Source: Mucispirillum schaedleri ASF457 (GTDB lineage: Bacteria > Chrysiogenota > Deferribacteres > Deferribacterales > Mucispirillaceae). Taken from it: DNA of 64,000 bases. The stretch lies in the NCBI RefSeq assembly GCF_000487995.2, contig NZ_CP097562.1, positions 741,001 through 805,000 of the forward strand. The letters run 5' to 3'. Below, piece by piece: positions 10,733 to 61,978 of this stretch. Under the pieces are notes generated by a model, which saw only the letters and a list, made by a program, of their open reading frames with translations, searched no databases and was not told where the DNA came from. The first letter of the stretch is position 1. The number at the start of each line of letters is the position of its first letter. The position numbers and the translations under genes were made by a program.

Positions 10733-13700
10733 ATATAATAATCTTGCATTAGAAGCATCAGCAGGCACAGGCAAAACTTTTCAGCTTGCAATGCGTGTTG
10801 CTGGTATGCTTTTAACTGGTGCTGCCCCAAAAGATATTTTATGCCTTACTTTTACTAGAAAAGCAACAGCTGAAATGAAAGAGCGTATTATAAAATTTAT
10901 TAACGGCTTTGCAGAAGGAACATCAGATACAAGTGAATATGAATTTATAGCTCCACTTATGAAAAAATATGCAGAGAAACTTCAAAGACCTTTTGATGAT
11001 AACTTTATAAAAGAAAAAGCAGTAACTGCCAGAGATAATCTATTCAGTCATTTTTCTGAATTAAATATAAAAACGATAGATGCTTTTAATAATACTATTT
11101 TAAGAATATTCCCTTTTGAAGCAGGTTTCCGCCCAGATTTTGGTGTGCATTGCGACGAAGAAACAGCCCAAATTAAAAGAACTGCTTTTTATCAGCTTGT
11201 TTCAGAAATGCTTGCAGATAATAAATGGAAACAAATACTTGATAATATTTATCCTGTTTTAGGTGTGCAGACAGTTTCTCTTATTTCCACACTGCAAAAA
11301 TATGCAGAATATGTGGCAGATAATATACTTAAACTTGAAAGTGCAGTAAAAAATGCACCTAGTCTTGATAATATAATAGAAATGCTTTCAAAAGCAGTAA
11401 CAATGCAGCAGAAAATACCAGAATTATGCCAAAAATTTAAAAAAACATTTGAAAATGATAATCTTAGTGTCAGGCAGGCAAATGCTGTTGAAAAACTTGA
11501 TTACAAAAAAATTCAAGATATATCAGATATACCTTTTTTTAAAAATACATTAGATGAAGCACCTAATTTCAAAAAATATGAGTTCAGCCAAAAACAGTAT
11601 AATCTGCATGAAAATATATTTAATAAACTGCAGGAATACTGGCTTTTATATGGAGATATTATTACAAGCCTTTCTTTAAACCTTGGTAAGCTTCTTAATA
11701 ATAAAATGGATATTTTAAAGAAAGAGAAGAATATGCTTACATACAGCGATATAAGCAATGCAGTATATTATATGCTTGCAGCAGATAACTCTAAAATAGA
11801 TAAAGATTACCTTTATTTCAGGCTTGATGGCAGAATAAACCATTTATTAATAGATGAGTTTCAAGATACATCTATATCCCAATGGCTTACATTAAAACCA
11901 CTAGCAGAAGAAGCAATGGCAGGATTAGGACAGCATGATAAAGTTGGCAGTTTTTTCTATGTTGGAGACCCAAAACAAAATATTTATCGTTTTCGTGGCG
12001 GCAGTTCTTCCCTTTTCAGACTGCTTTTACAAGAATATAAAGATAAACTTTCATCTAAAACACTTGATACAAACTATAGAAGCGGCAAAAATATTATAGA
12101 TATAGTAAATAAAATATCAAATGAAATATATAAACAGTATGGTGAAAATTTTGCAATTTTTAATATTGACCAAAAAGCATATAAAGAAAATGGTGATGGT
12201 TATGTGGAAATAACACATAAAATGGATAAGCAGGATAAAGAAGAAGATGCTTATTATTTAACATACTGTCTTGATAAAATAAATATATGTATAGAAAACG
12301 GATTTCAGTATAAGGATATTGCAATACTTACAGTTTCTAATAACCATGGGAAAGATATTATTGATTATCTTGAAAATAATAATATACCTGTGCAGGCAGA
12401 AACATCTGCAAACTTAACAAGCTCCCCTGTTTTTAATATTATTATGGCATTAGCTGAATTTATAGAAACAGATGATGATTATGCCTTTTTTAGATTTTTA
12501 TACACAAGCCCAAAAGCAGCACATAATAATATTATGCAGGATAAAGGCTTATTCATAAATGAAAAAAATAAAATAAAAAATATGCTTAATAATATAGAAG
12601 GGCTTTCCATATTTGATAAACTGCTCTATCTTTCAAATAAACTTGATTTACAAAGCAGGTTTAGTTCAAGTCCTGATTACTATGTATGTTTTGATATTAT
12701 ATCAAAAACAGCAGCCAATGAAACAAATATTGCTGATTTTAAAGAAACAGTTTTTAAATCAGCATCAAGCGAGCAGGCTCTTTCTGCTGCACAAAAAAAT
12801 GCAGTTACAGTTATGACTATCCATAAATCAAAAGGACTGCAGTTTAATGTTGTTATTCTTCCTAACTTATCAAGAGATATAACAGTTAATGCAAAAAATT
12901 CACCACTATTTATTGCTGATAATAATGTTTTTGGAGATTCTAAACTGTGCTGTGTATATTCTAAAAAACAATATCCATATATTTCTGGAACAAAAGCAGA
13001 AGAATATATGAAAAATGAAAATATGCTTACACTGCAGGACAGTGTTAATATGCTGTATGTTGCAATGACAAGGGCGGAAAAAGCACTTTTTATAAATGCT
13101 GAAATGCCAAAAGATATGCCATTAAAAATATCACATATTGCAGGGCTTTGTTTTCCTGAAAAAGTGCAGCAGGGTATACTTAAAGCAGAAATAAACAAAG
13201 AAAAAGAACAAGTAAAAAGCATAAATATTGAAATAAATATAAACAAACAAAAAGAATTGATTGATACAAAAGCATTTTACAGCAGAAAAGAAGATATTAC
13301 TTTTAATTATTTATCTGCTCTTGCTGGTGAGTGCCTGCATGCGGGTCTTTTTATGCTTGAATATGGCAGGGAAGAAACCATCTCAATAGCAGAAAAATGT
13401 ATGTATGCTAAATATGGCTCTGCACTGGATGATAAAACATTTGCTGATATAAAAAAATATATTCTTACAGTTTATAACAATACCCAGTGGCAGCAGCTTT
13501 TTAATGGAAGAGTGTTTAAAGAACGCCGCATTGGTAAAGATAACAACCTTTATTCTGTAGATATTTATAGTGAAATGGAAGATAAACTTGTTATTATGGA
13601 TTATAAAACTGGTGCATTAAATGACAAAATATTAGATGAATATAAAAAACAGCTTTTCACATATAAAGAAATACTAAAAAAGCTTTATAATAAAAAAACA

Positions 13701-13745
13701 GAATGCTGCATTTTCCATATAGAAAAAGGAATTTTTACTTTTTAG
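10713..13745 (+). CDS. AddA-like UvrD/RecB-family helicase-nuclease
   Basis: 1010 residues from the ATG at 10713, preceded by GGGAGGGA; an in-frame extension upstream lies inside addB and is less likely. SF1 helicase motifs in order: ASAGTGKT (Walker A, ~16-22), TFTRKATAEMKERI (Ia), LLIDEFQDTS (II), GDPKQNIYRFRGG (III), LDTNYRSG (IV), TIHKSKGLQFNVVILPN (V) and VAMTRAEKALFI (VI). The C-terminal RecB-type nuclease carries VDIYSEM..LVIMDYKTG. Shorter than Bacillus AddA (~1230), closer to the compact epsilonproteobacterial versions. Role: ATP-driven unwinding and nuclease processing of broken DNA ends with the AddB-like partner. No terminator is seen before the repeat region. Confidence 0.92.
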   Translation: MASSLNKYNNLALEASAGTGKTFQLAMRVAGMLLTGAAPKDILCLTFTRKATAEMKERIIKFINGFAEGTSDTSEYEFIAPLMKKYAEKLQRPFDDNFIKEKAVTARDNLFSHFSELNIKTIDAFNNTILRIFPFEAGFRPDFGVHCDEETAQIKRTAFYQLVSEMLADNKWKQILDNIYPVLGVQTVSLISTLQKYAEYVADNILKLESAVKNAPSLDNIIEMLSKAVTMQQKIPELCQKFKKTFENDNLSVRQANAVEKLDYKKIQDISDIPFFKNTLDEAPNFKKYEFSQKQYNLHENIFNKLQEYWLLYGDIITSLSLNLGKLLNNKMDILKKEKNMLTYSDISNAVYYMLAADNSKIDKDYLYFRLDGRINHLLIDEFQDTSISQWLTLKPLAEEAMAGLGQHDKVGSFFYVGDPKQNIYRFRGGSSSLFRLLLQEYKDKLSSKTLDTNYRSGKNIIDIVNKISNEIYKQYGENFAIFNIDQKAYKENGDGYVEITHKMDKQDKEEDAYYLTYCLDKINICIENGFQYKDIAILTVSNNHGKDIIDYLENNNIPVQAETSANLTSSPVFNIIMALAEFIETDDDYAFFRFLYTSPKAAHNNIMQDKGLFINEKNKIKNMLNNIEGLSIFDKLLYLSNKLDLQSRFSSSPDYYVCFDIISKTAANETNIADFKETVFKSASSEQALSAAQKNAVTVMTIHKSKGLQFNVVILPNLSRDITVNAKNSPLFIADNNVFGDSKLCCVYSKKQYPYISGTKAEEYMKNENMLTLQDSVNMLYVAMTRAEKALFINAEMPKDMPLKISHIAGLCFPEKVQQGILKAEINKEKEQVKSINIEININKQKELIDTKAFYSRKEDITFNYLSALAGECLHAGLFMLEYGREETISIAEKCMYAKYGSALDDKTFADIKKYILTVYNNTQWQQLFNGRVFKERRIGKDNNLYSVDIYSEMEDKLVIMDYKTGALNDKILDEYKKQLFTYKEILKKLYNKKTECCIFHIEKGIFTF

Positions 13746-13760
13746 TATTTTTGAGTATCA

Positions 13761-13880
13761 GTCATTTTGAGCCTGATTTTTACAGGCGAAAAATCTATAA
13801 TTATATATTTCAGCAGTGCATAATATATTAAAAGTATCTTATTTTTAGATACTTCGCTTATAAATCAAGCTCAGTAAGAC
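13761..13880 (+). repeat. dispersed intergenic repeat, module B plus module A
   Basis: Begins GTCATTTTGAGCCTGA.. and runs through ..GGCGAAAAATCTA.., a CAGCAGTGCATAATATATT segment and ..AGATACTTCGC..AGCTCAGTAAGAC. The same order of blocks recurs near 49.8 and 52.3 kb, and reversed near 38.7 kb. A related but more diverged sequence (GTCTTCCTGAGTGAG..GCGAGCGAAGGAACT) follows at about 13974-14012. The whole spacer 13746-14562 contains these repeats and the tandem array, and no gene that I can support. Confidence 0.85.
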
Positions 13881-14033
13881 ATAAGTTGAAGTGTATGAGT
13901 GCTTTACTTAACTTTGTATATTTTTAATGAAGTAAAATTTTTATGCTGCATACATTTTTGAAATACTAAAATATGTCTTCCTGAGTGAGTATATGCGAGC
14001 GAAGGAACTATTAAGATTATAGATTACTATTAT

Positions 14034-14412
14034 AGATACTTCGCCTTTCAGGCTCAGGATGAGCCGTCTTTAGTGAGCGATAGGCGAACTTGTTTCGGCA
14101 GAGCGTGATTTAAAAAATACAGGGATGTATTTTTTAATAAAAGATAAATTTAGATACTTCGCCTTTCAGGCTCAGGATGAGCCATCTTTAGTGAGCGATA
14201 GGCGAACTTGTTTCGGCAGAGCGTGATTTAAAAAATACAGGGATGTATTTTTTAATAAAAGATAAATTTAGATACTTCGCCTTTCAGGCTCAGGATGAGC
14301 CGTTTTAGTGAGCGATAGGCGAACTTGTTTCGGCAGAGCGTGATTTAAAAAATACAGGGATGTATTTTTTAATAAAAGATAAATTTAGATACTTCGCCTT
14401 TCAGGCTCAGCA
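14034..14412 (+). repeat. tandem array of three ~118-bp repeat units
   Basis: Units start at 14034, 14152 and 14270, with a truncated fourth start at 14387; periods 118, 118 and 117 bp. Units are nearly identical (differences such as GCCGTC/GCCATC, and one base lost in unit 3). Each unit holds the module A core, a GGCTCA/TGAGCC hairpin, a CGAA/TTCG hairpin, and a 12-bp A+T hairpin TTAAAAAATACA-GGGA-TGTATTTTTTAA (first at 14110-14137). No open reading frame spans the units convincingly. Confidence 0.93.
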
Positions 14413-14562
14413 AAACATAGTAGTAGAATTTACCAAAAAATATATGTATAAATAAAAAATAATAGTTTTCAATCATAAAATACCCTATTTTCACTTTTGC
14501 ACTTATCAAGGAAAAGTAAAATTTTACTTGATTTTTCATATTAATATATTCATATTATATCT

Positions 14563-15291
14563 ATGAAAAAATTAAATTTTGTATTAATTGCTGCTGTATG
14601 GTTTAGCTGTGTTTCATATTCATTTGCAGAAACTGCTGATATAGAAATAGAAAATGTGCAGATACAGAAGATAAACAAAAACTTAATCTATCATTTACCC
14701 CCCCCCATCTCTTATGATACAGCATCCAGCAGTGCTGTTAAATATAATTTATATAAATTTAAAGAAAAAAATGACCTGCTTGATTATATATCTAACCCAT
14801 ATATATCTGAATTAAGCAAAACTTTTGATAAAGAAAGCCTGTATACTTATGCTCTTACTTATCACAGTAATATTGCAGAATACGATGTTACTGCATCCCC
14901 TGTAAAAAAATACAGTGCAGGTATTACTACCTTTTCACTTAAAAGTATGAATATATTTTCTACCAGTGATTATGATTCTGCCATTAATGATTCCATATAC
15001 AGTTTTATAATAAGCTCAGTTTTAGGGTTTACTACAAAAGATTTAATTGGCTTAAATATTTGGAGTGGCACAAATAATGACGGTGTTTCAGGCTTTCAGG
15101 CAACTATCCGCCCTTTTAAAAACCTGCATGCAGCCTATTCTTATTTAACAGACCAAAAATATAATAGAAGTATTATTAAACTAAACTATGGATATAAAAA
15201 ATACAGTAATCTTGCCTTTAAAACTATGAATACTTTTAATGACCACCACATAAACACTACTATTGGTATTGAGTGGCAGTTTTATTTCTAG
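14563..15291 (+). CDS. predicted outer-membrane beta-barrel-like protein with a poly-C tract
   Basis: 242 residues with a signal peptide (MKKLNFVLIAAVWFSCVSYSFA|E). The C-terminal half alternates polar and aromatic residues in strand-like stretches (NLHAAYSYL, IIKLNYGYKKYSNLAFK, INTTIGIEWQFYF) and ends in phenylalanine, the usual last residue of outer-membrane barrels. No named family recognised. Nine consecutive Cs at 14698-14706 encode Pro-Pro-Pro at residues 46-48, in an otherwise A+T-rich gene; slippage there would cut the protein to a short peptide. The stop shares the bases CTAG with the stop of the convergent downstream gene. Outer-membrane location is inferred. Confidence 0.72.
   Translation: MKKLNFVLIAAVWFSCVSYSFAETADIEIENVQIQKINKNLIYHLPPPISYDTASSSAVKYNLYKFKEKNDLLDYISNPYISELSKTFDKESLYTYALTYHSNIAEYDVTASPVKKYSAGITTFSLKSMNIFSTSDYDSAINDSIYSFIISSVLGFTTKDLIGLNIWSGTNNDGVSGFQATIRPFKNLHAAYSYLTDQKYNRSIIKLNYGYKKYSNLAFKTMNTFNDHHINTTIGIEWQFYF
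14698..14706 (+). repeat. C9 homopolymer inside an exported-protein gene
   Basis: Nine Cs in a row in frame, coding three prolines shortly after the signal peptide. Long G/C runs in A+T-rich genomes are well-known phase-variation switches in surface-protein genes (for example in Campylobacter). Confidence 0.9.
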
Positions 15292-16186: not shown

Positions 16187-16293
16187 ATATAACCGTCCAC
16201 GGATAAGACTATATTATAATATAGAAAAAGTCAAGTTTGGACTTATATAAAAAAAGTTAGACAAAAACCATATAAGCATCTTATAAAGTAAAT

Positions 16294-16374
16294 AAAGACG
16301 GCTCGTCCTAAGCCTGCTTCCATGTCATATATATAATTTAGATTTTTCGCCTGTAAAATCAGGCTCAAAATGAC
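16294..16374 (-). repeat. dispersed intergenic repeat, reversed copy
   Basis: Read on the minus strand: GTCATTTTGAGCCTGATTTT..GGCGAAAAATCTAAATTATAT, then a GGCTT-AGGAC-GAGCC hairpin (16300-16314) with one G-T wobble pair. It lies directly downstream of the HD-GYP gene. Confidence 0.8.
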
Positions 16375-22246: not shown

Positions 22247-22651
22247 GTCATACTGAGCCAAAGGCGAAGTATCTTAATAAATTTATATTAAAAAATTCAT
22301 CCATGAATTTTTTAAACCACACTCTGCCGAAACAAGTTCGGCTATCGCTCACTAAAGACGGCTCGTCCTGAGCCTGATTCCATGTCATATATAATTTAGA
22401 TTTTTCGCCTGCAAAATCAGGCTCAAAATGACTGTAATATGAGAACTCTAGGTCTTACTGAGCCACGAAGTATCTTAATAAATTTATATTAAAAAATTCA
22501 TCCATGAATTTTTTAAACCACACTCTGCCAAAACAAGTTCGGCTATCGCTCACTAAAGACGGCTCGTCCTGAGCCTGATTCCATGTCATATATAATTTAG
22601 ATTTTTCGCCTTTAAAAATCAGGCTCAAAATGACTGTAATATGAGAACTCT
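22247..22651 (-). repeat. two ~205-bp copies of the dispersed repeat in tandem, reversed
   Basis: Copies begin at 22247 and 22452 with GTC(A/T)TACTGAGCC. Each includes a perfect 13-bp-arm palindrome TTAAAAAATTCAT-CC-ATGAATTTTTTAA (first at 22288-22315), a GCCGAA/TTCGGC hairpin, the GGCTC/GAGCC hairpin, and module B (..TTTTTCGCC..AATCAGGCTCAAAATGAC). The second copy is cut off by the IS3-family element, and the array resumes on the other side at 24107. Confidence 0.9.
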
Positions 22652-22673
22652 GAACTTACCCAAAAATTTTGAA

Positions 22674-23474
22674 CTAAGCCACTAAATAAATTTCTTTTTC
22701 CTGTAAAGGTGTAAGTCCATTAGCTTTTATTCTGTAATTATTATAGAAATCAATATATTTTTCAAGTTCATATTTAAACTGTTCTATATTTTTGAATTTG
22801 TTAATATAAACCAATTCACATTTTAAAGTAGCAAAGAAACTTTCCATAACAGCATTATCATAGCAGTTGCCACGCCTTGACATACTCTGCTCTATATTAT
22901 TTTCCTTTAATAACTTTCTAAATTGATTAGCCTGATATAATATACCCTGGTCTGAATGTATCATTAACCCTGTTGTATCTTTTGTTTTATCTATTGCCTG
23001 TTTTAAATTATCTATTACCATTTCTTCATTATTATATTTGCTTACACTGTATGCTGTTATTTCTCTGTTATACAAATCCATTATTGCTGATAAATACACC
23101 TTTTCATTATTAATTTTTATCTCTGCCACATCTGTTACCCATTTTAAACATGGTTTCTCACTTGTAAAGGCTCTGTTTAATTTATTGCTGCATATATGAC
23201 TTACTCTGCCTTGTTTATACCTTTTCTTAACCCTGATTATTGATGAAATATTTAATTCCTTCATTAATTTTGCTACTGTCTTCCTGTCATAAGTATAACC
23301 CAGTTTCTCTAATGCCTTTGTTATTCTTGGATAGCCGTAAGTCTTGTTAGATTTTTCATATATTTCTAATATATATGCCTTGACTTCTGCATATTTATCT
23401 AATGCAGCAGGCTTTTTAACATTATAATAGTAAGTGCTTCTTTTCATATTACTCACAGACAACAGGATATCCAA
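22674..23474 (-). CDS. IS3-family transposase OrfB, copy 1
   Basis: 266 residues counted from a TTG codon. The frame is open further upstream (..EKAQIITALRLYYSLDILL..), as expected if it is made as a -1 frameshift fusion with OrfA. The HTH_21-type segment (KTYGYPRI..LEKLGYTYDRKTV) precedes an rve integrase core with DDE residues D115 (WVTDVAEI), D175 (IHSDQGILY) and E211 (AVMESFFATLK), giving the DD(35)E spacing of IS3 enzymes. Role: cut-and-rejoin transposition of the element. Differs from copy 2 only within residues 33-107. Confidence 0.95.
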   Translation of the reverse strand: MDILLSVSNMKRSTYYYNVKKPAALDKYAEVKAYILEIYEKSNKTYGYPRITKALEKLGYTYDRKTVAKLMKELNISSIIRVKKRYKQGRVSHICSNKLNRAFTSEKPCLKWVTDVAEIKINNEKVYLSAIMDLYNREITAYSVSKYNNEEMVIDNLKQAIDKTKDTTGLMIHSDQGILYQANQFRKLLKENNIEQSMSRRGNCYDNAVMESFFATLKCELVYINKFKNIEQFKYELEKYIDFYNNYRIKANGLTPLQEKEIYLVA

Positions 23475-23500
23475 ACTGTAATACAGCCTTAATGCAGTTA

Positions 23501-24058
23501 TTATTTGTGCTTTTTCTGTTGAACTCTCTGTTCCTTTGACTGCATTAAGGCTTCCAGCTTTTTTAAATATGCATTCTCCGCTGACTTGTAATAAAGCTCT
23601 TTTTCAAGCTCTGATATTCTCTCTTTTAATTGTCTTACTTCTTCACTATCATCTGATTTAGTGAGTTTAATATCAGTAGAGTTTGAGTGTTTACTCTTTT
23701 TACTGTTCGGGATATTCTTATCTGACATATTATCTCCAATAAACTTACTGCAAAACTTATTCCAGTCATATATTACTGATGCTGATGGTATATTAAAATA
23801 TAGTGCTGTCTGCTCATAACTTAAATTATTTGATGCCTTATAAGTTAACACATTTAATTTAAAATCTCTACTATATTCATTGCGGGTAAAGCTATGATGT
23901 AAACTTGATTCGCCTGAATGCTTATATCTGTTATAGATATTACATATTACTCCTTTATGAATTTTACAGCATCTTGATAATTCACTGGCACTCATTATTC
24001 CATTTTCTATGACTGTTACTAGATATTTCTTAAACTCATAGCTGTATTTTCTTGCCAT
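23501..24058 (-). CDS. IS3-family OrfA, copy 1
   Basis: 185 residues from the ATG at 24058, which has GGAG 5 bases upstream; a GTG two codons earlier overlaps that ribosome site. N-terminal helix-turn-helix (SASELSRCCKIHKGVICNIYNRYK), a second one (LSYEQTALYFNIPSASVIYDWNKF) and a C-terminal leucine-zipper-like coiled coil (EVRQLKERISELEKELYYKSAENAYLKKLE). DNA-binding partner of OrfB. The end contains an A5G run where ribosomes could slip -1 into orfB. The protein is identical to the copy 2 product. Confidence 0.93.
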   Translation of the reverse strand: MARKYSYEFKKYLVTVIENGIMSASELSRCCKIHKGVICNIYNRYKHSGESSLHHSFTRNEYSRDFKLNVLTYKASNNLSYEQTALYFNIPSASVIYDWNKFCSKFIGDNMSDKNIPNSKKSKHSNSTDIKLTKSDDSEEVRQLKERISELEKELYYKSAENAYLKKLEALMQSKEQRVQQKKHK

Positions 24059-24106
24059 ATACACTCCTTATATGGTTAGTACAACTTTTTCGGGTAAGTT
24101 CACTCT

Positions 24107-27400: not shown

Positions 27401-27605
27401 CTGCAACATTTTGAGCGATAGTTTCTGCATCTGCACCATTATAGTTAGCCTGCACATTAACCTGCGGCGGCGTAAGGTTAGGATACCTTTCAATAGGCAG
27501 TATTTGTATACATATTAAGCCTACCAGTGTTATAATGATGGATATAACCGTTGCAAAAATAGGTCTTTGAATAAAAAATCCTGCTTTTATTTCTTTATTT
27601 TCCAT
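24462..27605 (-). CDS. RND efflux pump inner-membrane transporter (HAE1 / AcrB type)
   Basis: 1047 residues, the usual AcrB length. Twelve membrane segments in the 1+5+1+5 pattern and two large periplasmic loops. N-terminus FIQRPIFATVISIIITLVGL is characteristic of HAE1 pumps. Proton-relay aspartates are present in TM4 (GMVVDDAIIVVENVERLM, ~406-407) and the conserved Lys region in TM10 (LVGLAAKNAILIVEFA). Proton-driven export of hydrophobic drugs, bile salts or detergents through a tripartite complex. The adaptor is the upstream gene, 14 bases away. No TolC-type outer-membrane channel is in the window. Confidence 0.97.
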   Translation of the reverse strand: MENKEIKAGFFIQRPIFATVISIIITLVGLICIQILPIERYPNLTPPQVNVQANYNGADAETIAQNVAAVLESQIFGVDDMIYMNSVSSSAGYVSVTVTFAIGTDPDLATINVNNKVQTALAQLPSAVQQLGITVTKRNPSMLMLVSLNSPDNSYSKVYLANYALLNVVDELKQVPGVGEVSLFGRDYYSIRVWLDPNKLAYYGLIPDDVSNVIRSQNAQFAAGSLGAAPMDGNQADVYWQVLPPVRYSTPEEFGEIIIRSNSDGSSLRLKDVARLELGSETYGVESRYNGAMSTVMGIYLSPDANALATADAVKAKVDELSLNFPEGITHSFIFDNTKFITVSIKEVVKTLIEALILVIIIVYVFLQNWRATLIPSLAVPVSIIGTFAGMYALGFSINILTMFAMVLAIGMVVDDAIIVVENVERLMATGLSVKKATAQAMHEVTRPVIAVVLVLSAVFIPVAFMGGLAGVMYKQFAITIVISVIISGIVALTFTPALCMLLLKHGKEEKHILHRGFNKGFDFMTKGYLHGVKFILRNNIVAIIIFGVTIAGVAYLFTHIPTGLVPEEDQGVVLSVAMLPDGTSMDRTAKYMQEFSDKLLNEPSVEAFTSLAGFDMLSGSVRPNAGAVFIDLVHWDKRKTEDLSANALVKKIYGMGMVTPEGVTFAFNPSPIPGMSATGGFEMWIQNRAGDTSEKLYEYAMQIVMAANQRPEVQGVRTSMSITAPQLQLEVDKEKALAMGVSISDIFSVLSSTFGQAYVNDFNLFGRSYKVYTQADAEYRSTPNNLDKLYVRSASGNMVPVSTMVKYTEKGGAYVIERFNNFPSTKIFGNNGVGYSSGEAMAAIEEVAKNILPSGYTIGWSGQSYQERESSGSTVTVFALALIMVFLILAAQYESWSLPFAVVISIPFAALGAGLATFLKGYSNDIYFQVALVTLVGLAAKNAILIVEFAVEKYRAGGCSLEEAAFTGAQLRFRPIIMTSLAFIFGTIPLALSTGAGAASRNVLGWAVVGGMTFATILLPLFVPFFFKWIMWISIKLFPPREDEFE

Positions 27606-27619
27606 AATAAATACCTGTA

Positions 27620-28789: not shown

Positions 28790-29110
28790 AATACTCTCCA
28801 ATACAATTAATCTTTATGCTTATAAATACAAGTCTATATTTAAAACATATTTTTTTTATTTGAGCAATAGAAACTATTATTAATGTGGACACATTTAATA
28901 ACAATGTTAAATATCACTTCTGTAATTTATTTATACTACAAGACATTATAGAATAATAAAAAGTTCAAAATATTTGACAATATTAAAAGCAATGTTAAAG
29001 TCAATTATTGAAAATAGTTAAAATATTTTATCTGTGAATATAAGCTTGATTTATAGTGAAATATAAAAAAGTTAGATAATTTAAATATATTATACACTTC
29101 TGTAATATAT
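28790..29110. other. spacer upstream of the efflux operon
   Basis: 321 bases of A+T-rich sequence expected to hold the efflux promoter. A TTGAC..GTCAA inverted pair (about 28976-29004) and a TAACAATGTTA near-palindrome (about 28908) are visible but not convincing as operators. From about 29070 it becomes a fragment of the dispersed repeat (GTTAGATAATTTAAATATATTATACACTTCTGTAATATAT), cut by the second IS copy. Confidence 0.5.
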
Positions 29111-29153
29111 GAACTTACCCAAAAAAGTTGGACGAGCCATATAAGGAGTGTAT

Positions 29154-29711
29154 ATGGCAAGAAAATACAGCTATGAGTTTAAGAAATATCTAGTAACAGT
29201 CATAGAAAATGGAATAATGAGTGCCAGTGAATTATCAAGATGCTGTAAAATTCATAAAGGAGTAATATGTAATATCTATAACAGATATAAGCATTCAGGC
29301 GAATCAAGTTTACATCATAGCTTTACCCGCAATGAATATAGTAGAGATTTTAAATTAAATGTGTTAACTTATAAGGCATCAAATAATTTAAGTTATGAGC
29401 AGACAGCACTATATTTTAATATACCATCAGCATCAGTAATATATGACTGGAATAAGTTTTGCAGTAAGTTTATTGGAGATAATATGTCAGATAAGAATAT
29501 CCCGAACAGTAAAAAGAGTAAACACTCAAACTCTACTGATATTAAACTCACTAAATCAGATGATAGTGAAGAAGTAAGACAATTAAAAGAGAGAATATCA
29601 GAGCTTGAAAAAGAGCTTTATTACAAGTCAGCGGAGAATGCATATTTAAAAAAGCTGGAAGCCTTAATGCAGTCAAAGGAACAGAGAGTTCAACAGAAAA
29701 AGCACAAATAA
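29154..29711 (+). CDS. IS3-family OrfA, copy 2
   Basis: 185 residues, identical in sequence to the copy 1 product: two helix-turn-helix segments and a C-terminal coiled coil. The ATG at 29154 follows AAGGAG. The run AAAAAG at 29697-29702 is read as AAA-AAG in the OrfA frame and lies in the overlap with the open -1 frame of orfB, so it is the probable slippage site for the OrfAB fusion (inferred). Confidence 0.93.
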   Translation: MARKYSYEFKKYLVTVIENGIMSASELSRCCKIHKGVICNIYNRYKHSGESSLHHSFTRNEYSRDFKLNVLTYKASNNLSYEQTALYFNIPSASVIYDWNKFCSKFIGDNMSDKNIPNSKKSKHSNSTDIKLTKSDDSEEVRQLKERISELEKELYYKSAENAYLKKLEALMQSKEQRVQQKKHK

Positions 29712-29737
29712 TAACTGCATTAAGGCTGTATTACAGT

Positions 29738-30538
29738 TTGGATATCCTGTTGTCTGTGAGTAATATGAAAAGAAGCACTTACTATTATAATGTTAAAAAG
29801 CCTGCTGCATTAGATAAATATGCAGAAGTCAAGACATCTATATTAGAAATATATGAAAAATCTAACAAGACTTATGGTTATCCAAGAATATCAAAGGTAT
29901 TAGAGAAACTGGGTTATACTTATGACAGGAAGACAGTGTATAAATTGATGAAAGAACTAAAAATTTCATCACTAATCAGGGTTAAGAAAAGGTATAAACA
30001 AGGCAGAGTAAGTCATATATGCAGCAATAAATTAAACAGAGCCTTTACAAGTGAGAGACCATGTTTAAAATGGGTAACAGATGTGGCAGAGATAAAAATT
30101 AATAATGAAAAGGTGTATTTATCAGCAATAATGGATTTGTATAACAGAGAAATAACAGCATACAGTGTAAGCAAATATAATAATGAAGAAATGGTAATAG
30201 ATAATTTAAAACAGGCAATAGATAAAACAAAAGATACAACAGGGTTAATGATACATTCAGACCAGGGTATATTATATCAGGCTAATCAATTTAGAAAGTT
30301 ATTAAAGGAAAATAATATAGAGCAGAGTATGTCAAGGCGTGGCAACTGCTATGATAATGCTGTTATGGAAAGTTTCTTTGCTACTTTAAAATGTGAATTG
30401 GTTTATATTAACAAATTCAAAAATATAGAACAGTTTAAATATGAACTTGAAAAATATATTGATTTCTATAATAATTACAGAATAAAAGCTAATGGACTTA
30501 CACCTTTACAGGAAAAAGAAATTTATTTAGTGGCTTAG
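29738..30538 (+). CDS. IS3-family transposase OrfB, copy 2
   Basis: 266 residues counted from a TTG, with an open frame upstream joining the OrfA region in the -1 frame. DDE catalytic residues D115, D175, E211 as in copy 1. Residues 1-32 and 108-266 are identical to copy 1. Between 33 and 107 there are eight substitutions: A33T, Y34S, T52S, A54V, A68Y, N75K, I79L and K107R (copy 1 to copy 2). Such clustering suggests recombination with a third, diverged copy. Confidence 0.95.
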   Translation: MDILLSVSNMKRSTYYYNVKKPAALDKYAEVKTSILEIYEKSNKTYGYPRISKVLEKLGYTYDRKTVYKLMKELKISSLIRVKKRYKQGRVSHICSNKLNRAFTSERPCLKWVTDVAEIKINNEKVYLSAIMDLYNREITAYSVSKYNNEEMVIDNLKQAIDKTKDTTGLMIHSDQGILYQANQFRKLLKENNIEQSMSRRGNCYDNAVMESFFATLKCELVYINKFKNIEQFKYELEKYIDFYNNYRIKANGLTPLQEKEIYLVA

Positions 30539-30618
30539 TTCAAAATTTTTGGGTAAGTTCAGTATCTAAAAAATAGATAATTTAAATATGTTATACAGAA
30601 CTTTAATATATATACTTT

Positions 30619-49757: not shown

Positions 49758-50182
49758 GAACTTATTCAAAATTTTTTTCTCACATTCATTTTAAGCCTGA
49801 TTTTAAAGGTGAAAAATCTAAATTATATATATTAAAGCAGTGTATAACATATTTAAAACTATCTAACTTTTTAGATACTTCGCCTTGCAGGCTCAGTATG
49901 ACCTAGAGCTTTCACATTGCAGTAAGATACGGAAACAGGCTCAGGACGAGCTGTCTTTAGTAAGCGATAGACGAACTTATTTCGGCAGAGGGTGATTTAA
50001 AAAATTTATGGATGAATTTTTTAATACAAATTTATTAAGTCATTTTGAGCCTGACTTTAAGGCGAAAAATCTAAATTATATATATTAAAGCAGTGCATAG
50101 CATATTTAAAACTATATAGCTTTTTATTTACTCAGCCTTATCATTCTCAGTATAACTGATATGCAAAATTTTTAAGTAAGTC
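49758..50182 (+). repeat. composite dispersed-repeat block bounded by IS-end-like inverted sequences (possible MITE)
   Basis: Left border GAACTTATTCAAAATTTTTT matches the IS3-family end GAACTTACCCAAAAATTTTG at 16 of 20 positions. Right border CAAAATTTTTAAGTAAGTC (50164-50182) is, inverted, almost the IS end (two substitutions and one gap). Between them lie module B, module A, the GGCTC hairpin, the CGAA/TTCG hairpin, the A+T palindrome (49997-50024) and a second module B. No gene inside. No target duplication seen. This block accounts for most of the spacer 49730-50297. Confidence 0.65.
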
Positions 50183-52292: not shown

Positions 52293-52607
52293 GGGTTTAT
52301 CCTAAAAACTTTGTGCTGTAAGTTACTTTGAGCCTGTTTTAAAGGTTAAAAAATCTAAATTATATATATTACAGCAGTGCATAATATATTTAAAACTATC
52401 CAGCTTTTTAGATACTTCGCCTTACAGGTTCAGTATGACCTGCAGTTTTCACATTGCAGTAAGACACGGAAACAGGCTCAGGATGAGCCGTCTTTAGTAA
52501 GCGATAGCCGAACTTGTTTCGGCAGAGCGTGTTTTAAAAAATACAGGGATGTATTTTTTAATAAAAGATAAATTAAGATACTTCGCCTTACAGGCTCAGT
52601 ATGACTG
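52293..52607 (+). repeat. composite copy of the dispersed intergenic repeat
   Basis: Order: a weak IS-end-like start (GGGTTTATCCTAAAAACTTTG), module B (TTACTTTGAGCCTG..AAATCTAAATTATAT), the ACAGCAGTGCATAATATATT block, module A, a TTTTCACATTGCAGTAAGACACGG link, GGCTCAGGATGAGCC hairpin, GCCGAA/TTCGGC hairpin, the TTAAAAAATACA/TGTATTTTTTAA hairpin, and a final module A ending in CAGTATGAC. It fills most of the spacer 52226-52742. Confidence 0.88.
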
Positions 52608-59261: not shown

Positions 59262-59684
59262 ATGAAAAAACTATTTGTAACATTTTTTACAGCAGTCATC
59301 TCACTGTTTGCATTTACTGCATTTGCTGCTGATATGCTTATTCAGCCAAATCAGCTGCCACAAAACTCTCAACAGTTTATAAGCAAAACTTTTAAAAATG
59401 CAAATATTGTTGCAGCTAAAAGGGATAAAAACAGTTTTGAAGCTATCCTTAATACTGGTGCAAAAATTGAGTTTAATTTAAGTGGTGAATGGGAAGAAAT
59501 AGAAGCATATTCTGCATTACCTGATGGACTTTTACCTGCTGCAGTTGAAAAAGCAGCAAAAAGCCAAGGCGGTCAAATCATTAAAATAGACAAAGATTTT
59601 GGATATTATGAAGTAAAATTAAATAACAATCTTGAATTAAAAATTGATATGAATGGTAATATTTTAAAAAGAAAAATGGACTAA
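59262..59684 (+). CDS. secreted PepSY-like (DUF2874-type) protein, copy 1
   Basis: 140 residues with a signal peptide (MKKLFVTFFTAVISLFAFTAFA|ADM). Two tandem PepSY-like half-repeats: QLPQNSQQFISKTFKNANIVAAKRDKNSFEAILNTGAKIEFNLSGEWEEIEAYSALPDGLLP, then VEKAAKSQGGQIIKIDKDFGYYEVKLNNNLELKIDMNGNILKRK. Such periplasmic proteins are thought to modulate or bind partner proteins; function not settled. AAGGAG lies 7 bases before the ATG. A terminator follows. Paralogue of the protein at 60911-61333. Confidence 0.88.
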   Translation: MKKLFVTFFTAVISLFAFTAFAADMLIQPNQLPQNSQQFISKTFKNANIVAAKRDKNSFEAILNTGAKIEFNLSGEWEEIEAYSALPDGLLPAAVEKAAKSQGGQIIKIDKDFGYYEVKLNNNLELKIDMNGNILKRKMD

Positions 59685-59713
59685 TCCCATTCCTTTAATA
59701 TATAAACCTATCC

Positions 59714-59739
59714 GCCTGTTTCCAATTTTGGAAGCAGGC
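59714..59739 (+). terminator. terminator of the first PepSY-like gene
   Basis: GCCTGTTTCC / GGAAGCAGGC, 10 bp with one G-T, loop AATTTT, followed by ATTTTTTT. Confidence 0.9.
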
Positions 59740-59887
59740 ATTTTTTTATAAAGTTCATATAGCACCGTCAGAAAAAAGTATCTTTGTAACAACTTGTCAT
59801 AATTATATTATATAGTGCACAGCTGATAATAACATAGATGTTACAATTATGTTATACTAAGACTAAAACGAAATATTACAAAAAAAA

Positions 59888-60204
59888 GGATGTATTTTTT
59901 AATAAAGGATAAATTTATTCACTTCGCCTTATAACTCTCATTATGACATAATTGTAGTAGTTTTATTATTCAGAGCTGCTGTCACACAATGTCTATTATG
60001 AGGATAGCGAAGAATCTTGTATCTATAATGAGGTTAAAACTGCTAACTTTTTAGGATACTGTATAATATAAGTATAAGTATGAATTTAGATATTGCCTAA
60101 ACAGTTAATAATTTATAGAATGTTTAAATTGCAATAATTCTAAATACTATATTGTGGGTTGCAGTTTTTACAATACAGATACTTCGCCTTATGGCTCAGT
60201 ATGA
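59888..60204 (+). repeat. 317-bp segment duplicated at 61668-61978
   Basis: Starts in the hairpin half GGATGTATTTTTTAATAAAGG and runs through a TATTATTCAGAGCTGCTG block, a (T/C)TATT(A/C)TGAG..ATAGCGAAGAATCTT block, and a long GATACTGTATAATATAAGTATAA..TTGTGGGTTGCAGTTTTTACAATACAGATACTT part. The downstream copy is similar over its whole length with scattered substitutions and short gaps. No open reading frame of note. Confidence 0.85.
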
Positions 60205-60214
60205 TATGAATGCA

Positions 60215-60434
60215 GGCTTAGGACAAGCCGTCTGAAAATGAGCGATAGCTGAACTTGTTTTGGTAGAGCGTGATTTTAAAAAACATGGAGAGCATATTTT
60301 ACTACACTGCACTCCGAGTATGTAAAACGACTTGCCATTAATATAGGCAAGACTCTGTTTTTGCAGCACAAGGACTTTCCGAGCAAGCAGCGATGGAATA
60401 AAAAGTCCGCAGCTGGACAGTATTTGAAAATAAA
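60215..60434 (+). repeat. dispersed repeat unit interrupted by a structured insert
   Basis: GGCTT-AGGAC-AAGCC hairpin (60215-60229), AGCGATAGCTGAACTTGTTTTGGTAGAGCGTGA, then the A+T hairpin is interrupted after AAAAAACATGGAG by ~120 bases of higher G+C, before the unit resumes near AAATAAAGGGTAAATTAAGATACTTC. The insert is described separately. Confidence 0.75.
60296..60420 (+). other. G+C-richer insert with several hairpins, possible small RNA
   Basis: CTTGCC / GGCAAG (60331-60336, 60346-60351), GGACTTT / AAAGTCC (60372-60378, 60402-60408) and GTCC-GCAGCT-GGAC (60405-60418), the last competing with the second. No promoter or terminator is clear and no open reading frame was found, so calling it an RNA is speculative. 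Confidence 0.35.
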
Positions 60435-60442
60435 GGGTAAAT

Positions 60443-60562
60443 TAAGATACTTCACTATATTTCAAGACCAGTATTAACATACAGTTTTCACACGATAACT
60501 CATTTTGAGTCTGATTTTATAGGCGAAAAATCTAAATTATATATATTACAGTAGTATATAAA
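60443..60562 (+). repeat. dispersed repeat fragment (module A remnant plus module B)
   Basis: AAGATACTTCACTATATTTC.. followed by CTCATTTTGAGTCTGATTTTATAGGCGAAAAATCTAAATTATATATATTACAGTAG. From 60563 to 60822 I see only A+T-rich sequence. Confidence 0.75.
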
Positions 60563-60822
60563 TCAAAAAATGCAGCAATCTTAAAACAGTATTGACAATT
60601 ATTGCAGCTTATACTAACTAAATTATTCGCATTCGCTCATAATGACAGGTGGCAGCATATCTTTCTTAAAAAGAGCAAAGCGGAGCAAAAGAAATATATA
60701 TCAAAATAAGATAATGTTTAATAAATAAGCAAAATAAATAGATTATTCCATTTGCTTATAATAAATATCCATCCTTTTAAACATTAAGAAACATATTAAA
60801 AATAATAAAATATAAAAACAGT

Positions 60823-60866
60823 TTTTTTGTAACTATTTTCTTTCAACTGCGACTAATAAAACATAA
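60823..60866 (+). promoter_or_regulatory. conserved 44-bp upstream block of the second PepSY-like gene
   Basis: Counterpart of 59184-59227 (about 35 of 44 identical). Ends 44 bases before the start codon. Between it and the gene GGTTTCAAGCC and CCTTAAAAGGAG can form a small hairpin next to the ribosome site. Confidence 0.65.
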
Positions 60867-60910
60867 AGTAAAGGTATAAAAGGTTTCAAGCCTTAAAAGG
60901 AGTTATACTT

Positions 60911-61333
60911 ATGAAAAAAATCTTAGTTTTAACAGCAGCATTTTTAATGACAGCAAGTCTTGCTTTTGCAGATATGGTTATTGCACCAGATGCACTTCCT
61001 GCAAATGTTAAGCAATTTATTCAAGCAAATTTTCCTACTTCTAATATTATGTTTGCAGAGCAGGATTATGATAGTATTGAAGTAAAATTAAATACAGGTG
61101 TAGAAGTTGAATTTTATATAAATGGTGATTGGAAAGAAATTAAAGCATACCAAAACTTTCCAACAGCAGTTTTACCTGCCCCAGTTGCAGATGCAGTAAA
61201 AAATGCTCATCCTCAGGCTTTTATTATAAAAGCAGAAAAAACATGGAATGGTTTTGAAATAAAAACAAGTAATATGATGGAAATATATATTACTGCAAAT
61301 GGTCAAATAATGGGACAAAAATTTGATGATTAA
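60911..61333 (+). CDS. secreted PepSY-like (DUF2874-type) protein, copy 2
   Basis: 140 residues, the same length as copy 1. Signal peptide MKKILVLTAAFLMTASLAFA|DM. Two half-repeats: ALPANVKQFIQANFPTSNIMFAEQDYDSIEVKLNTGVEVEFYINGDWKEIKAYQNFPTAVLP, then VADAVKNAHPQAFIIKAEKTWNGFEIKTSNMMEIYITANGQIMGQKFDD. Roughly half the residues match copy 1. AAAAGGAG precedes the ATG. Ancestral duplication of gene, upstream block and downstream segment is indicated. Confidence 0.88.
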   Translation: MKKILVLTAAFLMTASLAFADMVIAPDALPANVKQFIQANFPTSNIMFAEQDYDSIEVKLNTGVEVEFYINGDWKEIKAYQNFPTAVLPAPVADAVKNAHPQAFIIKAEKTWNGFEIKTSNMMEIYITANGQIMGQKFDD

Positions 61334-61358
61334 TGTTTTAAAAAATAGTATACTCACA

Positions 61359-61382
61359 ACTACCCGTTAAACAACGGGTAGT
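61359..61382 (+). terminator. terminator of the second PepSY-like gene
   Basis: ACTACCCGTT / AACGGGTAGT, perfect 10-bp arms with AAAC loop, followed by TTATTTTTATG. Confidence 0.92.
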
Positions 61383-61476
61383 TTATTTTTATGCTATAAT
61401 CTATTATCTCTTGCAGTTTCTATTATGCTGACTTATTAAAATCACATCACAGTAATTACAATCTTATCACTAACTG

Positions 61477-61978
61477 GACTTACCCCAGAAATTTTATATA
61501 TCAGTCATTTTGAGCCTGATTTTAAAGGTGAAAAAATCTAAATTATATAGTTTTAGATACTTCGCCTTATTACTCTCAGTATGACATGTAAGCAGGCTCT
61601 GGACGAGCCGTCTGAAAGTGAGCGATAACCGAACTTATTTCGGCAGAGCGTGATTTAAAAAATACAAGGATGTATTTTTTAATAAAGGATAAATTTATTT
61701 ACTTCTCCTTATTACTATCAGTATGACAATTGTAGCAGTTTTATTATTCAGAGCTGCTGCCACACAATGCCTATTCTGAGCATAGCGAAGAATCTTATAT
61801 TTATAATGAAATTAAAACTACAAACTTTTTAAGATACTGTATAATATAAGTATAAATTTAGATATTGCCTAAAAGTTAATAATTTATAGAATATTTAAAT
61901 TGAAATAATTCTAAATACTATATTGTGGGTTGCAGTTTTTACAATACAGATACTTTGTCTTATCACTATCAGTATAAC
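61477..61978 (+). repeat. composite dispersed repeat beginning with an IS-end-like sequence
   Basis: GACTTACCCCAGAAATTTT (61477-61495) resembles the IS3-family end GAACTTACCCAAAAATTTT. Module B follows at the same distance as in the 49.8-kb block, then module A, GGCTC-TGGAC-GAGCC, CCGAA/TTCGG, the TACA/TGTA hairpin, and from 61668 the segment duplicated from 59888-60204. It fills most of the spacer 61334-62275. Confidence 0.82.

Follow-up and report, generated by a model that had tools for sequence, protein, structure and literature searches.

The window analyzed here (contig positions 741001-805000), a 64-kb stretch of DNA from the genus Mucispirillum with a GC content of 30.6%, contains nine copies and one fragment of an intergenic element of about 100 nt, found with the covariance model R1 and a repeat-family search. 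Assignment to the genus is secure, as all named FliW proteins related at 84-96% identity belong to Mucispirillum, and the species is probably M. schaedleri. Each unit carries four hairpins (hp1 to hp4) in fixed order. The copies and the associated repeat are the following:

14022..14048, plus strand: flanking end repeat AGATACTTCGCC..AGGCTCAG, recurring after each unit (repeat family D2)
14047..14144, plus strand: copy 1 of 3 in a tandem array; hp1 14051-14065, hp3 14083-14099, hp4 14110-14137 (R1 108.1 bits; blast reference unit, 100%)
14165..14262, plus strand: copy 2 of 3 in the array; hp1 14169-14183, hp4 14228-14255 (R1 107.0 bits; loop scan)
14283..14379, plus strand: copy 3 of 3 in the array; hp1 14287-14301, hp4 14345-14372 (R1 102.4 bits; loop scan)
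16293..16333, minus strand: 5'-end fragment consisting of hp1 only, with a G-U pair (16300-16314); repeat family D14, absent from the R1 matches
22281..22378, minus strand: copy; hp4 22288-22315 with loop ATGGAT, hp1 22360-22374 with loop AGGAC (R1 107.0 bits; loop scan)
22482..22579, minus strand: copy; hp4 22489-22516, hp1 22561-22575 (R1 103.9 bits; loop scan)
49934..50031, plus strand: copy; hp4 (49997-50024) contains a T-G pair (R1 97.2 bits; sequence check)
52471..52568, plus strand: copy; hp1 52475-52489, hp4 52534-52561 (R1 112.2 bits)
60211..60453, plus strand: long form; hp1 60215-60229, hp3, and an hp4 stem opened around an extra folded domain of ~150 nt (R1 match 60211-60309)
61591..61689, plus strand: copy; hp4 61655-61682 with loop AAGGAT, hp1 with loop TGGAC (R1 101.6 bits; A1 alignment)

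The genome from which the window is taken (home genome, 2.35 Mb) holds at least 90 copies when R1 candidates are scored. Its R1 listing comprises 85 matches, with window copy 52471..52568 scoring best, and a blast search with unit 14049-14166 as query returned 62 matches. The open-licence literature searched yielded no paper describing the repeat family, nor any dealing with CsrA RNAs of Mucispirillum, Geovibrio or Deferribacteres.

Read on the sense strand, a unit consists of end repeat, hp1, hp2, hp3, the motif GAGCGTG, hp4 and again an end repeat. Hp1 has a 5-bp stem and the loop AGGAX or ANGGAX, hp2 appears in relatives as TCGCTT/AAGCGA, hp3 combines a variable stem with a loop of about YTTRY, and hp4, following hp1 at a spacing of about 60 nt, closes an ANGGAX loop with an A+T-rich stem of 11 bp. 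Tandem arrays of two to five units account for 17 of the 58 arrays in the home genome and 15 of the 66 in relatives, the remaining units being single. The end repeat AGATACTTCGCC..GGCTCAGTATGAC, which presumably resembles a widespread bacterial intergenic repeat, was located by pattern search at 86 places in the home genome, both as direct repeats flanking units and alone. In the long form, the A+T stem of hp4 encloses an extra folded domain of up to ~150 nt, located by blast at contig positions 801295-801453 (window 60295-60453); a 166-base query gave 40 matches. Within this domain, a compensatory switch between GGACTTT/AAAGTCC and GCATTTC/GAAATGC surrounds a conserved GARYA loop (A2 alignment, 28 copies), and the domain may represent a second functional module. 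Near one long-form copy, a cobalamin riboswitch was detected (L049:1174-1346, plus strand, 75.5 bits).

Two further repeat structures were observed in the window. An AcrB/HlyD efflux gene pair is bracketed by two inverted copies of a 1453-bp sequence with an rve/HTH_21 transposase (22650-24102 and 29110-30562; 99% identical). At 59262-61963, two PepSY-like genes occur together with flanking intergenic repeats, which suggests a duplication of about 1.7 kb.

Pairing and turnover of the stems

Compensatory base changes with pairing kept had been proposed from hairpin variants within the window, and all of these are in place: the long A+T hairpin reads TTAAAAAATACAGGGATGTATTTTTTAA at 14110-14137, TTAAAAAATTCATGGATGAATTTTTTAA at 22288-22315 (minus strand) and TTAAAAAATTTATGGATGAATTTTTTAA at 49997-50024, hairpin 1 appears as GGCTTAGGACGAGCC at 16300-16314 (minus strand) and as GGCTTAGGACAAGCC at 60215-60229, and a third hairpin occurs as GCCGAACTTGTTTCGGC near 52.5 kb and as GCTGAACTTGTTTTGGT near 60.25 kb. 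The proposal also holds genome- and order-wide, well outside what chance would produce. In alignment A1, comprising 44 of the 62 blast matches from the home genome (40 distinct; fragments, long forms and other variants omitted), 97.3% of the stem cells are paired and the covariation score reaches 0.220, compared to 0.062 after shuffling and at most 0.048 with partners slid. Both sides have changed in 10 of the 22 stem pairs, and the hp1 stem alone occurs as GGCTC/GAGCC, GGGAC/GTCCC and GAAGC/GCTTC. In the hand-picked alignment A3, spanning genus and order (29 copies: 15 of 17 extracted from relatives and 14 from the home genome), the score of 0.361 drops to 0.095 on shuffling and to 0.112 at most on sliding, and both sides have changed in 17 of 22 stem pairs. 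Between lineages, the stems differ almost completely.

A covariation test of the R-scape type, as had been suggested in the first-pass annotation, was performed by simulation against a tree-based null with 141 copies. These were derived from 176 covariance-model matches via 162 unique sequences, 146 of which are 88-112 nt long and 141 have at least 90 aligned letters; the set includes a few weak and probably false matches. The column pairs ranking first to sixth overall are proposed stem pairs, namely 8-16, 7-17, 6-18 and 5-19 in hp1, 41-49 in hp3 and 73-82 in hp4, five of them with E<0.05 and pair 5-19 with E ~0.07. As the rows were found by a structure-aware model and realigned without structure, some ascertainment towards pairing persists in this result. 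Covariation thus exceeds a null preserving relatedness, as expected of a conserved structured RNA, and the three types of control (shuffle, slide and tree null) agree in supporting that the stems are under selection for pairing while their sequence drifts. Folding energies of six representative copies correspond to z-scores of -3.3 to -4.9. Counting against the model, hp1 is not formed in the minimum-energy single-sequence fold of a window copy, where its GCTC pairs with a downstream GAGC.

The G-U intermediates, on the other hand, had been read as a pointer to RNA, and this argument falls away. Counted as distinct column-states, G-U and A-C are about equally common, at 6 versus 4 in A1, 9 versus 4 in A3 and 5 versus 6 in A2 (28 of the 29 long or mid forms, the truncated L078 being dropped); without a clear excess over A-C, G-U pairs alone do not indicate RNA. 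The near equality would also suit a non-functional repeat whose compensatory changes stem from template switching repairing quasi-palindromes instead of from selection, as would the observation that several stem pairs switch as blocks (TTTAAAAAATAC to TTTTTCAAATTC). This explanation is nevertheless judged highly improbable in view of the loops, in which fixed bases stand beside free ones across families while the stems turn over.

Loops and the CsrA-type site

On top of hypervariable stems, hp1 and hp4 share the conserved loop pattern C-A(N)GGAX-G, in which N and X vary. Among the 141 copies, the hp4 loop has C in 125, A in 137, G in 137, G in 131, A in 120 and the closing G in 128, while its N position is occupied by A in 50, T in 31, G in 28 and C in 17 copies, with 15 gaps. 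At N, 41 changes are inferred, the highest value among the columns printed (median 14 and maximum 42 over all columns), compared to 3-9 at the fixed loop bases. Hp1 follows the same pattern as C-A-G-G-A-X-G. This composition rules out a GNRA-tetraloop hairpin, the assignment originally made from the window copy: what is conserved is an A(N)GGAX loop that accepts any base at N, and GGGA is only one of its forms. The CsrA-type character of the loops is overlooked in the first-pass annotation.

Loop conservation survives the removal of recent duplicates. Counted by distinct stem, GGA loops are present in 32 of 46 hp1 and 25 of 52 hp4 hairpins, the latter including long forms without a local hp4 hairpin, and in 4 of 47 middle hairpins. 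Hp1 hairpins bear GGA in 56 of 70 cases in the home genome (14 without) and in 60 of 68 in relatives. Neutral repair would not hold A, G, G and A constant while leaving N and X to vary, which argues against template switching.

According to PMC4005645, RsmE/CsrA bind best to a stem-borne hexaloop, A(N)GGAX, whose N and X are looped out, and affinity drops when N is omitted. The home-genome hp1 is mostly of this lower-affinity, pentaloop form. For CsrB, the repeats are given as CAGGA(U/A/C)G placed in hairpin loops; the CsrA SELEX consensus is RUACARGGAUGU (PMC7652899). The hairpin at 14110-14137, AUACAGGGAUGU, fits this consensus letter for letter; its 11-bp stem exceeds in length most of the SELEX hairpins (PMC7652899). 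In the window, ACARGGATGT occurs five times versus 0.16 expected, always within family copies. The two strands of the window together form 740 hairpins of at least 5 bp with loops of 5-6 nt; A(N)GGAX loops cap 16 of them, and 14 of the 16 are family copies. Separately, the start of the AcrB-like gene (27605) lies within a hairpin at 27594-27611 (minus strand) that has a 6-bp stem and the loop ATGGAA; this hairpin is possibly a CsrA target or a chance occurrence.

The CsrA encoded in the home genome is closest to solved carbon storage regulators, including 2jpp, and retains L4 and R44, the roles of which are described in PMC7652899. In pattern, the predicted loops of hp1 and hp4 are the published CsrA/RsmE site. 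Selection for CsrA binding would be expected to fix A, GGA and the closing pair and to leave N and X free on paired, drifting stems, as observed, and among the readings considered only such selection would account for the conservation pattern in detail.

Genomic context and distribution

Gene context was assigned with a simple ORF caller. The 58 arrays of the home genome comprise 25 convergent, 7 divergent, 7 sense and 15 antisense co-directional and 4 ORF-overlapping cases; hence, convergent over divergent positions are favored and a sense bias is not found (7 versus 15, p=0.13). All seven sense co-directional arrays are at least 177 nt away from the next start. In relatives, a sample of 66 arrays biased towards best matches shows 30 sense versus 11 antisense cases (p=0.004), besides 4 convergent, 1 divergent, 15 overlapping an ORF and 5 at edges. 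Here, fewer than 50 nt separate the end of many sense copies from a start codon with its Shine-Dalgarno motif. The bias in relatives indirectly supports an RNA role. From the lack of sense bias and the preference for convergent positions it follows that some home-genome copies would need their own promoters; a simple scan for sigma-70 promoters and terminators found one promoter-like site in 13700-14600 versus 5.0 in shuffles.

A coding function in the home genome is ruled out, with only 5 of 85 copies overlapping an ORF of at least 80 aa by more than 40 nt (22 of 91 in relatives). An intrinsic terminator is likewise dismissed, as the U-run lies inside the hp4 stem; the terminator scan flagged only hp1, followed by a weak T stretch that is not conserved in other species.

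The proximity to start codons would fit a purely cis-acting mRNA leader or spacer through which CsrA or a nuclease determines translation or stability for the neighboring gene alone, without any sponge effect. In three Mucispirillum relatives, units indeed lie immediately before the RNase E/G gene (L105 identified by Pfam). However, the genes downstream in relatives do not share a common function, encoding RNase E/G, Mu Gam-like and SU10 capsid proteins, a Cys/Met enzyme, a SpoIIE-type regulator, FliH, an epimerase, a permease, a histidine kinase and a glutamate-kinase-like amino-acid kinase with PUA domain (scan of 20 of the 30 listed proteins, four without family), and in the home genome the few sense co-directional arrays are all distant from the next start. 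Restriction to cis effects is regarded as rather unlikely. As for the RNase E/G leaders (L104, L105, L106 and L248), units in the three relatives are accompanied by a possible hairpin remnant in the home genome, where only a sequence resembling the 3' half of hp4, GATGTATTTTTAACAGGAGATTATATG, was recognized by eye and R1 gave no match; these leaders may hold a conserved target site. In two further loci of relatives (L109 and L139), units are found just upstream of the phage genes encoding the Mu Gam-like and SU10 capsid proteins.

R1 matches were obtained in 23 of the 45 genomes of the order. The genus contributes all 10 of its genomes, with 11 to at least 90 copies each; a second genus of the family is represented with 2 copies, and family f6 accounts for 12 genomes with 1 to 63 copies (39-63 per genome in one genus). 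Laxer filters yield up to 85 matches in the f6 genome G031. Among the genomes holding the named FliW loci, those of Mucispirillum have 19-30 matches, those of Denitrovibrio 1-3 and those titled Seleniivibrio 3-10. A csrA gene is present in 37 of 45 genomes, that is, in 23 of 23 with and 14 of 22 without the element, and the element does not occur in any of the eight csrA-less genomes; fliW is found in 38 of 45, among them all 23 element-bearing ones. By chance, none of the 23 would lack csrA with a probability of about 0.0015, without correction for kinship, and the association, running along family lines, counts as weak support. A scan of the csrA/fliW loci in 12 genomes gave no R1 match, so these loci show no sign of csrA being autoregulated in a simple manner through a copy close by. 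In genome G032, one weak R1 match lies ~240 nt after csrA.

Stems specific to a species and common to many copies in one genome, such as CTTTC/GAAAG in G032, indicate lineage-specific amplification. Together with the tandem arrays, hairpins with the same tip at both ends, the avoidance of divergent promoter regions by home-genome copies and the missing G-U excess, this would be compatible with a MITE- or REP-like mobile DNA whose end hairpins fold as single-stranded DNA and whose GGA tips are recognized by a transposase or recombinase, the likeness to CsrA sites then being coincidental. Direct end repeats flank the units. Y1_Tnp (PF01797), however, though present in 19 of 45 genomes, including some element-bearing relatives, was not found in the home genome (G000) or in G016, G030, G031 and G032, the four f6 genomes with the highest copy numbers (19-63). 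Where the element is most amplified, the Y1 transposase expected for a REP/RAYT or IS200/IS605 system is therefore missing. Moreover, the loops agree position by position with A(N)GGAX in what is fixed and what is free, and relatives show the sense-strand bias. A mobile DNA with merely coincidental CsrA-like tips is considered improbable, though the element may still be mobile.

Proposed function and known systems

With a probability of roughly 0.6, we consider the repeat a dispersed intergenic element that has been amplified within lineages and is under selection to fold as a single strand, most probably RNA, presenting putative CsrA-binding hairpins. The element would be read within mRNAs, at 3' ends in the home genome and in leaders and intercistronic spaces in relatives. 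As CsrA is a homodimer acting on paired GGA motifs (PMC4333381), the hp1 and hp4 loops of one unit might bind one dimer. Copies would then jointly titrate CsrA as a distributed sponge, and those adjacent to start codons may place the respective gene under CsrA control as well. It is the conservation pattern, the homodimeric CsrA and the two hairpins per unit that favor such a sponge with cis effects near starts. More tentatively, and held below even odds, the order might buffer CsrA by this repeat-element sponge alongside FliW, with a capacity set by the copies in active transcripts and evolving by expansion.

If this is true, a repetitive intergenic element gains a defined protein partner, and dispersed repeats may serve as a genome-wide CsrA sponge or as mRNA switches. 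CsrA-sequestering sRNAs of the Csr/Rsm type are stated to be identified in Gammaproteobacteria only (PMC4333381, from 2014), whereas PMC7652899 describes fliW as absent from Gammaproteobacteria and a joint action of FliW and sRNA as still to be established for any species. With 23 genomes encoding CsrA and FliW and bearing repeats with CsrA-type hairpins, the question of FliW plus RNA becomes testable.

REP/BIME, ERIC and BOX elements are short, intergenic and modular, and occur in many copies per genome and in tandem arrays. The element shares all these properties, but differs by loops conserved and stems hypervariable across families and, in the home and top-copy f6 genomes, by the absence of a Y1/RAYT transposase. 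CsrB/CsrC and RsmX/Y/Z resemble it in possessing several CAGGA(U/A/C)G or ANGGAX hairpins (PMC7652899 and PMC4005645), its tandem arrays multiplying such sites. Like these RNAs, it has GGA in A(N)GGAX/CAGGA(U/A/C)G hairpin loops and, in each of the 23 genomes, coexists with an encoded CsrA. In contrast to them, it is an intergenic unit of ~100 nt dispersed in up to ~90 or more copies, and it occurs together with FliW in every element genome. Rfam families of CsrA RNAs gave no match, so the element is not filed as a CsrB/Rsm-type member. TwoAYGGAY (RF01731) and Bacillaceae-1 (RF01690) are proposed CsrA-binding RNAs with two strong matches each to the CsrA hairpin motif (PMC4333381). Differing from both, the element does not match either family, is multi-copy and belongs to another phylum. 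The flaA leader of Campylobacter reportedly may titrate CsrA. It is comparable in being part of an mRNA, instead of a dedicated sRNA, in a FliW organism (PMC4894983), with the difference that it is the leader of a single gene, whereas the element constitutes a dispersed repeat family.
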